From assembly GCA_003696955.1 (NCBI GenBank), contig RFGU01000010.1, forward strand, positions 1 to 35,075: 35,075 nt of DNA, given 5' to 3'. The position numbers and the translations under genes are program-made. This stretch comes from Deltaproteobacteria bacterium (GTDB lineage Bacteria > Myxococcota_A > Polyangia > Nannocystales > Nannocystaceae). Under the pieces are notes generated by a model. That model was not told the origin of the DNA and ran no database searches. It saw only the letters and a list, made by a program, of their open reading frames with translations. Of the stretch, positions 10,654 through 23,879 are shown piece by piece; the stretch's first letter is position 1, and every line of letters begins with the position of its first letter.

Positions 10654-11151
10654 TCAGGCAGCTCGGCGGGGGGCGCTGGTGGACGGAACGTCGCGGATGG
10701 CCGCGCTGGTCGCCGCGATGCGTTGGTGCGCCACCAGGGGTTCGCCGAAGAACCGCACGCCGAAGCGCCGACCGTCGTCGCGTCGATGGACCACCTCGAA
10801 GGGCAGGAACACCCGCAGGGTGCTTCCCCCGGGGGCGATGTGCAGGGTGCCGGTGGTGCCCACGTGGATCCGGTCGGCGATGCCCGTGTCGTCACACAGA
10901 CATGCGCCCGAGCCCGAGAGGTCCTCGATGGTGGCCGGCGCGTCGATGCCGTCGATGCGGACGTAGGCCCGAGCGTCCAGGCGCACCCGACGAAAGGCGC
11001 GCTGTTCGAAGTCGCTGCGCCCTTCGATGCGTTCGCGCTCTCCGAGCAGGCGGCGCAGCCGTGCCAACTCGTCGCGTTTGTGGCGGCGCGTGGCGAGAAG
11101 GGTCCGGTAGCGAAGGACCGTCAGGAGGAACGCGCGGGAAGCCGGATCCAT
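10654..11151 (-). CDS. PilZ domain protein, probable cyclic-di-GMP receptor
   Basis: 165 residues from ATG 11151. The first 45 residues form a charged helix ('RHKRDELARLRRLLGERERI'). The PilZ domain follows with both ligand motifs: RxxxR as 'RAFRR' and DxSxxG as 'DLSGSG'. Strands 'GTLHIAPGGSTLRVFLPFEVV' and 'RRFGVRFFG' complete the barrel. The short C-terminal tail is Ala/Thr/Pro-rich. The start is 7 bases after the stop of the DUF423 gene, so it is the last gene of a three-gene operon. Binding of cyclic-di-GMP is expected from the intact motifs; the downstream target is unknown. Confidence 0.9.
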   Translation of the reverse strand: MDPASRAFLLTVLRYRTLLATRRHKRDELARLRRLLGERERIEGRSDFEQRAFRRVRLDARAYVRIDGIDAPATIEDLSGSGACLCDDTGIADRIHVGTTGTLHIAPGGSTLRVFLPFEVVHRRDDGRRFGVRFFGEPLVAHQRIAATSAAIRDVPSTSAPRRAA

Positions 11152-11158
11152 GGACGGA

Positions 11159-11629
11159 TCATCGCGGCGCCTCCGATGCGTCTTGAGGTGTGCCGTCTGG
11201 GCTCGGGCATGTCGCATCGGACCCGCGGGGACCGTTTCGGAACGAAGTCCACGCGGCGGCGGCAAGGGCGATCCAACCCGCGATGAGCAAGGTGCCGCCG
11301 ACGGGGGCCACGGCACCGAGCCATCGCGGCCCCCCCACGGCGAGGACGGCGACGGCACCGGCGAAGAGGATGGTCCCCGCGACCATCGTTGCCCCGGCGA
11401 CGTCGGCCAGGCGCCGCGCCCGCGGATGCGGCGGGACGAACAGGCCCGCGCCCACGAGGGCGAGGGCGTGGGTCTGCAGGTAGCGGACCGCCGTTCGCCA
11501 GGTCTCGAGGTCATGGGGGGAAAGGCGCGTGCGCAGGGTGTGCGTTCCGAACGCTCCGAGTCCGACGGCAAGGGCGCCGAAGACGGCACCAGCGACGATC
11601 CAGCGGGCAGCGTGGGCGGGGCGGGGCAT
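11159..11629 (-). CDS. DUF423 family small membrane protein
   Basis: 156 residues from ATG 11629. It matches YgdD-type DUF423 proteins: 'IVAGAVFGALAVGLGAFGTH' then 'LRTRLSPHDLETWRTAVRYL' and 'THALALVGAGLF'. Four transmembrane helices are expected, placing it in the inner membrane. The final 25 residues are a polar tail beyond the usual family end ('FRNGPRGSDATCPSPDG'). It lies 13 bases after the lipoprotein stop and 7 bases before the PilZ gene. No biochemical function is established for the family. Confidence 0.9.
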   Translation of the reverse strand: MPRPAHAARWIVAGAVFGALAVGLGAFGTHTLRTRLSPHDLETWRTAVRYLQTHALALVGAGLFVPPHPRARRLADVAGATMVAGTILFAGAVAVLAVGGPRWLGAVAPVGGTLLIAGWIALAAAAWTSFRNGPRGSDATCPSPDGTPQDASEAPR

Positions 11630-11642
11630 GGCGGGGATCCGT

Positions 11643-12455
11643 TCAGCGAGGGGCGGCGGCGGTGGTGACGGTGCGCAGCCAGTCGGCGACCGGCACGGTG
11701 CGGCCGTCCTCGAGCTGCACGAGATAGGGCGAGAAGACACCGAAGGGCTCCGCGGCGATCTCGTCGATGAACGTGCCCACGTCGTGGACGTCGGCGCCGA
11801 GGAAGTGCCACTTCTTGGTCAGCATGTCCGCGAAGGCGGCCGCGTCGAGGCGCTTGGGCGGCCCCGAGCGCTGGGGAACGAGGAAGGTTCGTCCCGACCG
11901 TTCGATCCGGGCGAGGAGGTCCACGATGTCGGCGTCGGTCGCGGCCCGTTCGCGGGGGGGCGTGGGGTCGGATGCGTGCACGCCTCCGTCCGGGGGCAGG
12001 CCGGCCTCGATGCGGTCGAGCGCGTCGTGCAGGTACGTCCGCACGTCTACCTCCGTTCCGTTCGGGAGCCGGACGCGGACCGGACGCCCGTCGGGGCCGG
12101 GGCGGCCCACGCGTTCGACGAACTCGCGGGCCGTGCGGATGTCGTCGTGGGCCGCGTAGGTCTCACGCATGACGTCGGCGAACTCGCCGGCCGTCGTCTC
12201 GCGACGTCCGCGCAGGAACACCCGGCCGCTTGCCTCGACCCAAGCGGCGAGCCGCTCGATCTTGTCCCGTTCCGAAAGACCCTCCGTCCGAGGCCTCGCC
12301 TGGGCCTGGGCGCGGACCGGCGCAGCGAGCGGTGGCTCCTCGGTCACGACGAGGGTAGGCGGCCGATCCCCGCATGCGGTCGCGGCGGCCGTCACGAGGC
12401 ATGCCAGGAGGCCGCGCACGCCTGCCGGCACGGTCGTGGGGAAGGGGCGACCCAC
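11643..12455 (-). CDS. Lipoprotein with two tandem DUF5329-like domains
   Basis: 270 residues from GTG 12455; internal GTG starts at 12431 or 12419 are possible. A hydrophobic N-terminus ends in a lipobox 'ATACGD'. Two similar halves follow: 'KIERLAAWVEASGRVFLRG...TAREFVERVG...PVRVRLPNG...YLHDALDRI', and 'DIVDLLARIERSGRTFLVP...VGTFIDEIA...PYLVQLEDG...VADWLRTV'. Both match my memory of DUF5329 ('IE.LL..VE.SGC.F.RNG'). The Cys of the usual SGCxF motif is Arg in both copies. It is first in the operon with DUF423 and PilZ genes. A TACCCT -10-like hexamer ends 6 bases before the GTG. Confidence 0.8.
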   Translation of the reverse strand: MGRPFPTTVPAGVRGLLACLVTAAATACGDRPPTLVVTEEPPLAAPVRAQAQARPRTEGLSERDKIERLAAWVEASGRVFLRGRRETTAGEFADVMRETYAAHDDIRTAREFVERVGRPGPDGRPVRVRLPNGTEVDVRTYLHDALDRIEAGLPPDGGVHASDPTPPRERAATDADIVDLLARIERSGRTFLVPQRSGPPKRLDAAAFADMLTKKWHFLGADVHDVGTFIDEIAAEPFGVFSPYLVQLEDGRTVPVADWLRTVTTAAAPR

Positions 12456-12461
12456 GGGGGC

Positions 12462-12478
12462 AGGGTAGCAGCTACCCT
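12462..12478. promoter_or_regulatory. Perfect palindrome carrying a -10-like hexamer on each strand
   Basis: AGGGTAGC-A-GCTACCCT is an inverted repeat with 8-base arms and one central base. It lies in the 35-base gap between the divergent lipoprotein and rarA genes. TACCCT occurs on the plus strand (12 bases before ATG 12491) and on the minus strand (6 bases before GTG 12455). It could be a bidirectional promoter core, a repressor operator, or both. Confidence 0.55.
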
Positions 12479-12490
12479 AGCTGCGCCCCC

Positions 12491-13843
12491 ATGGACGACC
12501 CTCTGTTCGAGCACGCGGTGCGCAACGATCCGAACATGCGCCCCCTGGCGGACCGCATGCGCCCGCGGACGCTCGACGAAGTGTGGGGCCAGCGGCACCT
12601 GGTGGGCCCACGGGGCATCCTGCGGCGCCTGTCGCCGGATCGCCCGCCGCCCAACCTGGTGTTCTGGGGACCGCCCGGGACGGGGAAGACCACCCTGGCT
12701 CGGGTCGTGGCGAGTCGGTGCTCGGCGGCCGTGGAGTCCCTGTCGGCGACCTCGTCCGGGGTACGCGAGATCCGGGCGGCCGTCGAACGCGCGGCCCGTC
12801 GTCGTCGCGAGCAACGGATCGCGACGGTGGTCTTCATCGACGAGATCCACCGCTTCCACCGCGGACAGCAGGACGCCCTCTTGCCCCACGTCGAAGACGG
12901 CACCGTCCGTCTCATCGGCGCCACCACGGAAAACCCCGCCTTCGAGCTGAACGCTGCGCTGCTTTCGCGGGCGCGCGTCCTCGAGGTGCATCCGCTGGAG
13001 ATCGACGATTTGGTGGGCCTGCTCGAAACGGCCCTGACCGATGCCGAACGGGGACTCGGCGGTGCCGATGTGCGGGCCGGGCGCCCCGCCCTCGAAGCCA
13101 TCGCGCACCTCGCAGACGGCGACGCCCGACGGGCCCTTACGATCCTCGAGTTGGCGGCGGAGTTGGTCGAGCCCGGCGCCGAGATCGACGAGGCCACCGT
13201 CGCCGACGCGGCGGGGAGCACGGTGCTGCGCCACGACCGGGCGGGCGACGGTCACTACGACGTGGCCTCGGCCCTCATCAAGAGCCTGCGGGCGAGCGAC
13301 CCGGACGCGGCCGCCTACTGGTGTATGCGACTGCTCCAAGGGGGCGACGACCCCATGTTCGTGGCGCGGCGGTTGCTCGTCTTCGCCAGCGAGGACGTGG
13401 GCAACGCCGACCCCCAGGCCCTGGTGGTGGCCCAGGCGGCCGCGGCCGCCACCCACGTCGTGGGCCTGCCCGAGGCGAGCCTCCATCTCGTCCAGGCGGC
13501 GACCTACCTCGCGCTCGCGCCCAAGAGCAACGCCGTGATCCGGGCCCGCGACGCCGCGGCCGCGGCGGTCGCCGAGCACGGGAGCCTTCCGGTACCGCTG
13601 CACCTGCGCAACGCCCCGACCCGCCTTGCGCGCACGCTCGGCCACGGCCGCGGATACGTCTACCCCCACGACCACCCCGACGGGCTGCCGCCGCCGGGCA
13701 CGCCGAGCTGTCTGCCCGAGGCCATCGCCGATCGGCGCATCTTCGTCCCGTCACCGCGTGGATGGGAGGCACGGGCCTTCCATCGTCTTGCGACGCTGCG
13801 GCAAGGACGGGACCGATCGGGCCGCCGCGACGGCGAGGCGTGA
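12491..13843 (+). CDS. rarA: Replication-associated recombination protein A (AAA+ ATPase)
   Basis: 450 residues from ATG 12491. RarA/MgsA is a tetrameric AAA+ ATPase acting at stalled replication forks, related to eukaryotic WRNIP1. Visible: 'LADRMRPRTLDEVWGQRHLV'; Walker A 'GPPGTGKTT' (60-68); Walker B 'VVFIDEIHRF'; sensor 1 'LIGATTENP'; arginine-finger region 'ALLSRARV'; sensor 2 'GDARRALTILE'; and the MgsA C-terminal domain 'YDVASALIKSLRASDPDAA', 'RRLLVFASEDVGNADP' and 'YLALAPKSNAV'. Length is normal. It is divergent from the DUF5329 operon and convergent with the small basic ORF. No Shine-Dalgarno is seen. Confidence 0.96.
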   Translation: MDDPLFEHAVRNDPNMRPLADRMRPRTLDEVWGQRHLVGPRGILRRLSPDRPPPNLVFWGPPGTGKTTLARVVASRCSAAVESLSATSSGVREIRAAVERAARRRREQRIATVVFIDEIHRFHRGQQDALLPHVEDGTVRLIGATTENPAFELNAALLSRARVLEVHPLEIDDLVGLLETALTDAERGLGGADVRAGRPALEAIAHLADGDARRALTILELAAELVEPGAEIDEATVADAAGSTVLRHDRAGDGHYDVASALIKSLRASDPDAAAYWCMRLLQGGDDPMFVARRLLVFASEDVGNADPQALVVAQAAAAATHVVGLPEASLHLVQAATYLALAPKSNAVIRARDAAAAAVAEHGSLPVPLHLRNAPTRLARTLGHGRGYVYPHDHPDGLPPPGTPSCLPEAIADRRIFVPSPRGWEARAFHRLATLRQGRDRSGRRDGEA

Positions 13844-13859: not shown

Positions 13860-13985
13860 CTACTTCTTGCCGCCTTCGCGCTCGGCCTTGCGGGCCGCCG
13901 CCTTGCGCTTGTCGCGGGCCTTCTTCTTGAGCTGCCGCTTGCGGCGGCGCATCTTGGGGGTGCGTCGATTGTCGTTCCAACCCAT
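13860..13985 (-). CDS. Very small, highly basic protein
   Basis: 41 residues from ATG 13985 to TAG at 13860, of which 20 are Lys or Arg. It begins 'MGWNDNRRTPKMRRRKRQ' and ends in 'EREGGKK'. The frame stays open upstream, so ATG 14000 (adding 'MLPCP') is also possible. No Shine-Dalgarno is clear. Composition resembles small ribosome- or nucleic-acid-binding proteins, but no family is recognised. It sits between convergent rarA and divergent pdxJ, a gap otherwise unexplained. It could also be a chance ORF. Confidence 0.5.
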   Translation of the reverse strand: MGWNDNRRTPKMRRRKRQLKKKARDKRKAAARKAEREGGKK

Positions 13986-22074: not shown

Positions 22075-23814
22075 CTACGGGGGCGTACAAGGTCCGCCGG
22101 CATCGGCGACGGCCTGTCGGTCCGTCTCGTCGAGGGCGTGGCAGCACGTATCGTGGCCTGCACCGACGGCGAACTCGAGCAGCAGGGACCGCGGCATCCC
22201 GTGACAGCAGGCGGCGTCGCCGTCGTCGCGGCAGTCCGTGAGGGCGAGGCACCCACCTTCGGCCGGGGCGGTGCACCGGGCGCGCAGGGAGGGGTTCGGG
22301 TCGGTGTAGTCGAGGACCAGGTCGGTGCCCGCGAGCATCGCCGTGCCGAGCAACCCGTCGGGTTCGATCCCATCGGGGGCGACGCTTCGCCGGACGGAGA
22401 CGGCCAGGGGATGGTCCGCCGGCAGGATCCGTGCGGTGATCCAGCGGTCGGTGGCCGGAGCCGTGGATCCCGCCGGCAGGAAGGCCTCACCGAGCACGAG
22501 CGCGGATGCGTCGGCGTCGTCGTCGGCGTCGCCCGGGTTGGCCGAGTACGGCGGCGAGGTGGCCGCGATGGAGCCGGCCTGGCGCGCGCTGCGGCGGTAG
22601 CGATCGCACTGGTTCTCCGCCGCCACCAGGCGTTCGGCCAATCGCGTGCACGGGGCGGGCGCCACCGGCTCGACCGCCCCCGGCAGGATCGCCAGGCTGC
22701 GCAGGCGCACCACGGGGAGCGGCACGTCCTCCCCGGCCGGAGGCCAGCCGGCGACGTAGAGGCGACCAGCCTCTTCGGTGGCACAGACCTGGGTCTGCGG
22801 GGTGGGGGCGACGGTGCACGGGGGCAACGCGTCGACGGGCCCGAACATCCGCTCGAACGCGTCCGAAAAGAGTGCCACGTCGGTAACCGACGTGGCGACG
22901 ACGAGGGTGGCCGAACGTCCTCCCATGGAGGCATCCGCACGAACACATGCACCCCCGGCATCGGGACCCGGTGCGAGACCGCAGGTCCCCGGTTGGGTGG
23001 GATCGTCCGCATCGGGGGTGTAGGTCACCGTGCACGGCGGTGGGGCCAGGCACGCGTCGAGGACCATGCGCGACGCGGCGAGGGCGAGCCGGTCGTCCCC
23101 GGGCACCAGGTCGACGCCCTTGGGCAGTTCGCAGTCGCGCCCGTCGACGAGACACCGATCGTCGCGCTGGCGGCCGAGCAGGCGGCCCGGGTACTGTACG
23201 GGCAGGAAGGCGTAGCCCTTGCGGGCCAGATCGCGATCGCTACCCGGGAAGGCGTCGTAGAAGGTCACCGTGGGCACGACGGCCTCGGTCTCGAAACGCA
23301 CGGCGAACGTCGCGAGGGCATGGGCGCCCAAGATCCCACCGGGGGTCGTGACGTTCGCCTCGGTGCCGTGTCGCCAGCTCCACGCTGCGGGCTCGGCGTC
23401 GGGGGCAGGCGTGCGGATGACGGGCAACTCCGTAAGGCGCAGGCGCGCGACCGACCGAGCCAGATCCTGGGCCGACGGCGTGGGCGCCCCGAGCCCGGCG
23501 GCGGGACGCAGTTCGAGGCATTCGGCCGACAACGAGAGTTCGTCGCCGGCGAGGCTGGGGTCGGGCAGGGCGGTCTCGGGGGCGAGACTGTCGAGGAGGA
23601 TCGGGCGACACACCCGCTCGGGATCGTCCATCGGGCAGCCGCCTCGGGCGATCTCGGAGCCGGGACATCCCTCGTCCACGAACGCGAGCCGGGGCGCGTC
23701 CACGCCGTCCCCGCTCCACAGGGGCAGGGGGCGGTCGAGCAGGCCCTCGGGGACGACCAGGGGCGGGACGCAGGCGGCCACGAGCACGGGCACGAGGGCC
23801 GGGGCGAGGCGCAT
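22075..23814 (-). CDS. Large lipoprotein of unknown function
   Basis: 579 residues from ATG 23814. A GTG two codons upstream (23820) is equally possible, because it lies 8 bases after an extended -10 TGCTACGGT. The lipobox is 'VPVLVAAC'. The mature part has many paired cysteines ('DEGCPGSEIARGGCPMDD', 'DDRCLVDGRDCELP', 'LDACLAPPPCTV' and 'LTDCRDDGDAACCHG'), and no recognisable catalytic motif. No family is assigned. The disulfide-rich composition fits an exported protein. It is 90 bases upstream of the DsbD-like gene on the same strand and divergent from thrC. Confidence 0.8.
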   Translation of the reverse strand: MRLAPALVPVLVAACVPPLVVPEGLLDRPLPLWSGDGVDAPRLAFVDEGCPGSEIARGGCPMDDPERVCRPILLDSLAPETALPDPSLAGDELSLSAECLELRPAAGLGAPTPSAQDLARSVARLRLTELPVIRTPAPDAEPAAWSWRHGTEANVTTPGGILGAHALATFAVRFETEAVVPTVTFYDAFPGSDRDLARKGYAFLPVQYPGRLLGRQRDDRCLVDGRDCELPKGVDLVPGDDRLALAASRMVLDACLAPPPCTVTYTPDADDPTQPGTCGLAPGPDAGGACVRADASMGGRSATLVVATSVTDVALFSDAFERMFGPVDALPPCTVAPTPQTQVCATEEAGRLYVAGWPPAGEDVPLPVVRLRSLAILPGAVEPVAPAPCTRLAERLVAAENQCDRYRRSARQAGSIAATSPPYSANPGDADDDADASALVLGEAFLPAGSTAPATDRWITARILPADHPLAVSVRRSVAPDGIEPDGLLGTAMLAGTDLVLDYTDPNPSLRARCTAPAEGGCLALTDCRDDGDAACCHGMPRSLLLEFAVGAGHDTCCHALDETDRQAVADAGGPCTPP

Positions 23815-23822
23815 TGCCACGG

Positions 23823-23837
23823 GGGCCGACCGTAGCA
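23823..23837 (-). promoter_or_regulatory. Extended -10 element of the large lipoprotein gene
   Basis: Minus-strand TGCTACGGT matches TGn-TANNNT and precedes GTG 23820 by 8 bases and ATG 23814 by 14. The same hexamer TACGGT stands before the tRNA-Leu gene. Confidence 0.4.
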
Positions 23838-23867
23838 CGCCGGCCGGCCGGCTCCGACATCTTCCGC

Positions 23868-23873
23868 TAGCAT
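23868..23873 (+). promoter_or_regulatory. -10-like TAGCAT before thrC
   Basis: TAGCAT is 6 bases before ATG 23880, with no Shine-Dalgarno in between. The same hexamer precedes the ECF sigma gene at 18358. No clear -35. Confidence 0.4.
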
Positions 23874-23879
23874 CCGGCC

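Follow-up and report, generated by a model that had tools for sequence, protein, structure and literature searches.

A palindrome between divergent rarA and DUF5329 genes as a probable compact two-way promoter with back-to-back TACCCT -10 boxes

Promoters that fire in two directions from a two-way -10 element are usually described as yielding antisense, non-coding RNA on one side. When such promoters arise from -10 symmetry, the two transcription starts lie 7–25 bp apart, 18 bp being the commonest distance (Warman et al. 2021, as described in the excerpted text of PMC10268837), and in the symmetric -10 element the -7T and -11A of the two -10 sequences pair, giving the form TANNNTA (same excerpt). 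Leaderless genes provide a further point of reference, as they carry TANNNT ~12 bp before the start codon, written TAnnnT for high-GC genomes, and the excerpted survey of Zheng et al. 2011 (PMC3160421) gives this signal for 8 of 33 delta-proteobacterial genomes. In Mycobacterium tuberculosis, the adjacent divergent genes prpD and Rv1129c have both been mapped as leaderless, and closely spaced divergent promoters are common, according to the excerpted text of PMC3898074. A literature search returned nothing on the rarA/DUF5329 pair or on Nannocystis promoters among the matches listed.

The locus considered here lies in the window, that is, the whole 35,075-nucleotide stretch of DNA that was analysed, and is centred on a 35-bp intergenic gap (12456–12490, no strand) between two divergent start codons, the GTG of the DUF5329 ORF on the minus strand and the ATG of rarA on the plus strand; this gap would be the whole two-way promoter region. 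The DUF5329 gene (11643–12455, minus; GTG at 12455), recognised by Pfam, encodes a predicted lipoprotein whose signal was read by eye, and it is followed at the second and third positions of the operon by a DUF423 gene (11159–11629, minus) and a PilZ-domain gene (10654–11151, minus), both likewise assigned by Pfam. PilZ domains bind c-di-GMP. On the other side of the gap, rarA (mgsA; 12491–13843, plus; Pfam RarA/MgsA) begins with an ATG at 12491. Next to it on the minus strand, at 13860–13985, there is a small ORF of 41 residues that is very rich in K and R (MGWNDNRRTPKMRRRKRQLKKKAR...) and lies outside the gene calls; a near-identical protein is found at the matching place in G001, the sister species, and it has no Pfam match.

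The earlier note had described, in this 35-base gap between divergent genes, a perfect palindrome that places TACCCT on both strands, and this was confirmed at 12462–12478 (17 bp, no strand), where the 17-mer AGGGTAGCAGCTACCCT reads AGGGTAGC-A-GCTACCCT, with two 8-base arms flanking a 1-bp axis. When as many as 3 mismatches are allowed, the window contains a single occurrence of the pattern, against 0.05 expected, and a search for further copies, which the same note had proposed, yielded none besides the one in the gap at up to 2 mismatches in the entire 4.36-Mb genome. Symmetry as such is unremarkable, because 8 perfect palindromes (arms of at least 8, spacer of 0–1) are present in the window; what stands above chance is the position of the palindrome and its letters. 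Another perfect palindrome, with 11-bp arms (GCCACGTCGGTAACCGACGTGGC), is located at 22874–22896 of the window, within a called gene.

The letters can be read against the start signals of the window's own genome, for which a sample of 467,580 of its 4,363,651 bases was taken, consisting of the window and 40 of 268 contigs, each limited to 20 kb; a simple home-made codon-usage caller, on which the gene starts rest, made 393 gene calls in this sample. In all, 271 starts had 15 bp or more of free sequence upstream. TANNNT is separated from the start codon by 6, 7, 8 and 9 nt in 19, 7, 12 and 12 of these, respectively (about 50 of the 271), over a background of 0.98 per position at 26–70 nt upstream. 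Because of this peak, genes predicted to be leaderless, with a TANNNT -10 that is often preceded by TG, are considered common in the genome, in agreement with what has been published for leaderless genes of high-GC bacteria (excerpted text of PMC3160421). TACCCT is one form of the box: together with TGCTAG and TAGGCT it is among the most enriched upstream 6-mers, and it is seen 8 times in upstream 60-mers, with 0.62 expected. A TG extension precedes 18 of the 50 boxes within the 6–9 nt peak, as against 7% of TANNNT boxes in M. tuberculosis (excerpted text of PMC3898074). A sigma-70 scan for TTGACA/TATAAT over 11400–13400 gave no match, and TTGAC is not enriched upstream of genes (11 seen vs 9.3 in shuffles); therefore, no -35 element is claimed.

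The earlier proposal that each arm supplies a -10-like hexamer pointing to its own gene is supported by these genome-wide -10 statistics, as well as by the sister species and the family relatives described below. The left arm, continued to the start codon on the minus strand, gives TGC-TACCCT-GCCCCC-GTG, an extended -10 at ideal leaderless spacing, in which the hexamer (12462–12467, minus) ends 6 nt before the GTG and the TGC extension (12468–12470, minus), present in G001 too, reaches the palindrome axis at 12470. The first T of this TANNNT stands exactly 12 nt before the GTG, so the DUF5329 side matches the leaderless pattern given in the excerpted Zheng et al. 2011 (PMC3160421), with the difference that the window packs two boxes into one 35-bp gap. 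Read on the plus strand, the right arm gives AGC-TACCCT-12 nt-ATG, a plain -10 preceded by AGC and lacking the TG; its hexamer (12473–12478, plus) is the sole TANNNT on that strand in the 170 nt leading up to rarA, and its first T stands 18 nt before the ATG both in G000, the window's genome, and in G001. TANNNT ending 12 nt before the start codon occurs in 4 of the 271 sampled starts. With a 9-base matrix trained on 49 other sites, the window pair being left out, the minus arm scores 10.97 and the plus arm 7.85, the training median being 9.33 and the lowest tenth 7.18, and -10 scores as good on both strands arise in 0.03% of 20,000 shuffles of the gap. By its sequence, the minus arm thus reads as a textbook leaderless -10, and the plus arm as a weaker one. 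Only the minus strand bears an extended -10, because the single axis base pair, A12470, can supply the T of TG to one strand only; the DUF5329 side receives this T, also in G001. Of the symmetrical bidirectional promoter that had been suggested, the two -10 boxes are supported, as both arms score as -10s, but full symmetry is not, since the TGC extension is confined to the minus strand and the distance from the plus box to the ATG is 12 nt instead of the usual 6–9.

In our reading, which the sequence makes probable, the gap of the window's genus is a compact, near-leaderless bidirectional promoter composed of two back-to-back TACCCT -10 boxes. For the DUF5329-DUF423-PilZ operon, the left arm with its TGC would give rise to a leaderless mRNA that begins with the GTG, the start predicted from the -10 spacing being 12455 (G of GTG, minus), and the right arm would start the rarA mRNA with a leader of ~6 nt, at a position predicted in the same way to be 12485 (plus). 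The -10 boxes, of housekeeping type, would carry most of the promoter work, no -35 being evident. As the predicted starts are ~30 bp apart, the geometry, in which polymerase footprints would overlap, suggests that a polymerase bound in one direction would block the other, which would make the two mutually exclusive. This arrangement differs from the symmetric -10 promoters in the excerpted account of PMC10268837, as the boxes of the window's genus (g1) do not overlap and their predicted start spacing falls outside 7–25 bp, and from prpD/Rv1129c, for which the excerpted text of PMC3898074 describes no shared or mirror-image -10. It could be argued that the dyad instead functions at the RNA level, forming a 5' hairpin or a terminator, since both strands fold better than shuffled sequences (z about -3.3). 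This is highly improbable, because the predicted starts lie outside the dyad, which would then not be transcribed; moreover, no T run follows the stem, the dyad sits between divergent genes, and the layout of the gap differs among relatives.

The two-box promoter reading can be examined further in G001, the only other genome of the window's genus in the comparison set, whose RarA is 74% identical. There, the divergent rarA/DUF5329 pair is present with AGCGTAGCAGGTACGCT at the corresponding place in the gap, and the identity of the palindrome is 14/17, compared with 8/18 for the rest of the gap on its two flanks (one-sided Fisher p 0.023). Of the three changes, two constitute a matched change in both hexamers (TACCCT to TACGCT, C to G), and the third breaks an inner pair of the palindrome. 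The hexamer-to-GTG spacing is 6 nt in G000 and 7 nt in G001, and the hexamer-to-ATG spacing is 12 nt in both. A relaxed motif, AGNGTAN5TACNCT, has a single site per genome in G000 and G001, located in both at the rarA/DUF5329 gap, and its reversed control has 1 and 0 sites. Conservation in relatives, on which the earlier note had made its case depend, is thus seen in the sister species, where the arms have changed alike; this paired change is a single case, from one sister species.

These data bear on two rival explanations. One is that the minus box alone is a promoter and the right arm a by-product, for example of an inverted duplication via template switching, with rarA served by a weaker or more distant promoter; the missing TG, the 12-nt distance and the lower score of the plus box agree with it. 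The plus-strand TANNNT and its spacing are, however, kept in G001 despite the diverged flanks of the gap, and no other plus-strand TANNNT is available in the 170 nt before rarA. The other is that a dimeric regulator acts on both genes, by repression or activation, through the palindrome as an operator overlapping the two start sites; an operator at the start sites had also been considered in the earlier note. The perfect dyad, kept in the sister species with arms changed as a pair, lends some weight to this explanation. Neither genome holds more than one site for the relaxed motif, however, and there is no second site at up to 2 mismatches in the window's genome, as a regulon would call for; nor does Pfam place a regulator gene next to the palindrome.

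Both explanations can be followed through the comparison set of 29 genomes, which is identical for the family and for the order. rarA and DUF5329 are adjacent and divergent in 21 of the 29, comprising 16 tabulated pairs and those of G009, G010, G014, G015 and G016; in the last four of these, DUF5329 was recognised by its place and by eye, and in G010 also weakly by Pfam. The two genes lie on different contigs in G022, G023 and G024, and the rarA search gave no match in G006, G021 and G028. A few genomes show peculiarities of their own. In G012, DUF5329 seems lost, its place as the gene diverging from rarA being taken by a DUF423-like gene, recognised by eye, whose strand carries TGCTACCTT. In G018, which is labelled g9, another gene stands beside rarA, which has no DUF5329 neighbour, and its RarA branches outside all other family members in the tree, suggestive of contamination or transfer. 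The rarA match of G002 contains one in-frame TGA.

Read by hand, and with the fitting codon chosen where relatives' genes offered several candidate start codons, TGNTANNNT ends 6–9 nt before the DUF5329 start in all 16 tabulated pairs and TANNNT ends 8–12 nt before the rarA start in 11 of the 16. The latter count speaks against a by-product origin of the right arm, whereas rarA without a -10 at near-leaderless distance in g12 (3 genomes) and in G007 speaks for it; in G020, no fitting rarA start codon was found. Taken with the evidence from the sister species, this leaves the minus box as the only promoter an unlikely explanation. Outside the family, near-leaderless TANNNT (5–11 nt) occurs in 9 of 20 rarA upstream regions from 20 other-family genomes, and the two-way form on both starts in none of the 20. 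DUF5329 scored above threshold in one other-family genome among 116 genomes of the class, on a contig different from that of its rarA; because the pair was not found together outside the order in these 116 genomes, it provides no deeper outgroup.

In 12 of the 21 pair-bearing genomes, from 6 genera, the two boxes are one: a single shared symmetric -10 of the TGNTANNNTANCA type. TANNNTA was found in G005, G008, G009, G010, G011, G013, G014, G015, G016, G017, G019 and G020, in sequences such as TGCTAGGCTAGCA, TGGTAGGCTACCA, TGCTAGGCTACCA, TGTTACGGTACCA and TAGTAGGCTAGCA, flanked on either side by TG or a close variant of it. In those cases in which both starts fit, 22–23 bp separate the start codons, and the shared hexamer lies 7–8 nt from the DUF5329 start and 9–10 nt from the rarA start. 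The predicted transcript starts would be 18 bp apart, the commonest spacing in the excerpted account of PMC10268837. The two-way promoter would be unusually compact yet of a known general type, and by sequence the shared form fits the -10-symmetry kind.

Across the 29 genomes, TGSTAGSCTASCA is present at 12 sites, 10 of them at the rarA/DUF5329 pair; at the remaining 2, just one side shows a suitably spaced gene start. G005 and G020 supply two looser shared forms beyond these sites. The reverse-read control of TGSTAGSCTASCA gives 91 sites (summed by hand), and because the control is commoner than the motif itself, the dyad is to be regarded as generally rare or avoided, not enriched. None of 126 other divergent pairs has the shared form (61 in G000, 45 in G013 and 20 in G005, the G005 sample being small and consisting of short contigs). 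Near-leaderless -10s on both strands are found in 12 of 61, 4 of 45 and 2 of 20 divergent pairs of G000, G013 and G005, respectively, and among such pairs that of the window shows by far the smallest box offset, 11 bp, the next being 35. A second divergent pair of the window, at 23821–23879, has near-leaderless -10s TGCTACGGT (8 nt) and CGCTAGCAT (6 nt), with boxes 39 bp apart.

The dyads at the corresponding gap of 12 relatives could likewise be taken for operators. Half-sites are 3 bp apart in g1, however, and 1 bp apart in the shared form (g4, g5, g6, g7, g9 and g10), and the boxes stand apart in g2, g3 and g12, while the box-to-start distances stay nearly constant, notably on the DUF5329 side, and the conserved letters are those of TGNTANNNT. 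A dimeric regulator should hold the distance between its half-sites fixed; because the spacing of the arms shifts between genera and the distances to the start codons stay, two -10 boxes are favoured over a dimeric operator. The operator overlapping the start sites, for which no second genome copy was found either, is accordingly disfavoured and rather improbable, although a local regulator with a single site might still fit.

The two-box promoter of the window's genus can be compared with the shared form in its relatives. In G000 the two proposed boxes are offset by 11 bp and do not overlap as TANNNTA; the genome also has TACCCTA at 12473–12479, whose minus box lies 18 nt from the GTG and is absent in G001. 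Measured by hand from the conserved DDxLFE motif of RarA, the minus box of G000 and the shared box of g9 lie at -32 and -33 nt, and the T needed for a plus-strand box at the old place is replaced by C in G000 and by A in G001. In G000, the plus box is 11 bp closer to rarA, whose start codon is closer as well. From the sequences, the window's genus thus seems to have divided the shared box into two, with the minus box remaining in its former position and a plus box newly arising 11 bp nearer rarA, if the direction of change is as we suppose. On the RarA tree, the shared form is found in G005, g7/g10 and g5/g6/g9, and separate boxes in g1+g3, g2 and g12; the shared form is likely ancestral, several deep forks of the tree being open.

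A broader picture may be drawn tentatively, although we regard it as doubtful as a whole: across the order, a single shared -10, practically the sole two-way box of each genome, would serve rarA and the DUF5329 operon in strict alternation, and the window's genus would have split this box into a mirror pair, in which the axis base pair chooses the direction of the extended -10. The proposed two-way -10 geometry of this gap has a protein gene on each side, and several genera have retained or rebuilt it. Everything that the two genes seem to require for starting fits into about 22 to 35 bp, and the relatives may offer a natural variant set, with which one-base changes could reveal direction, strength and polymerase exclusion.
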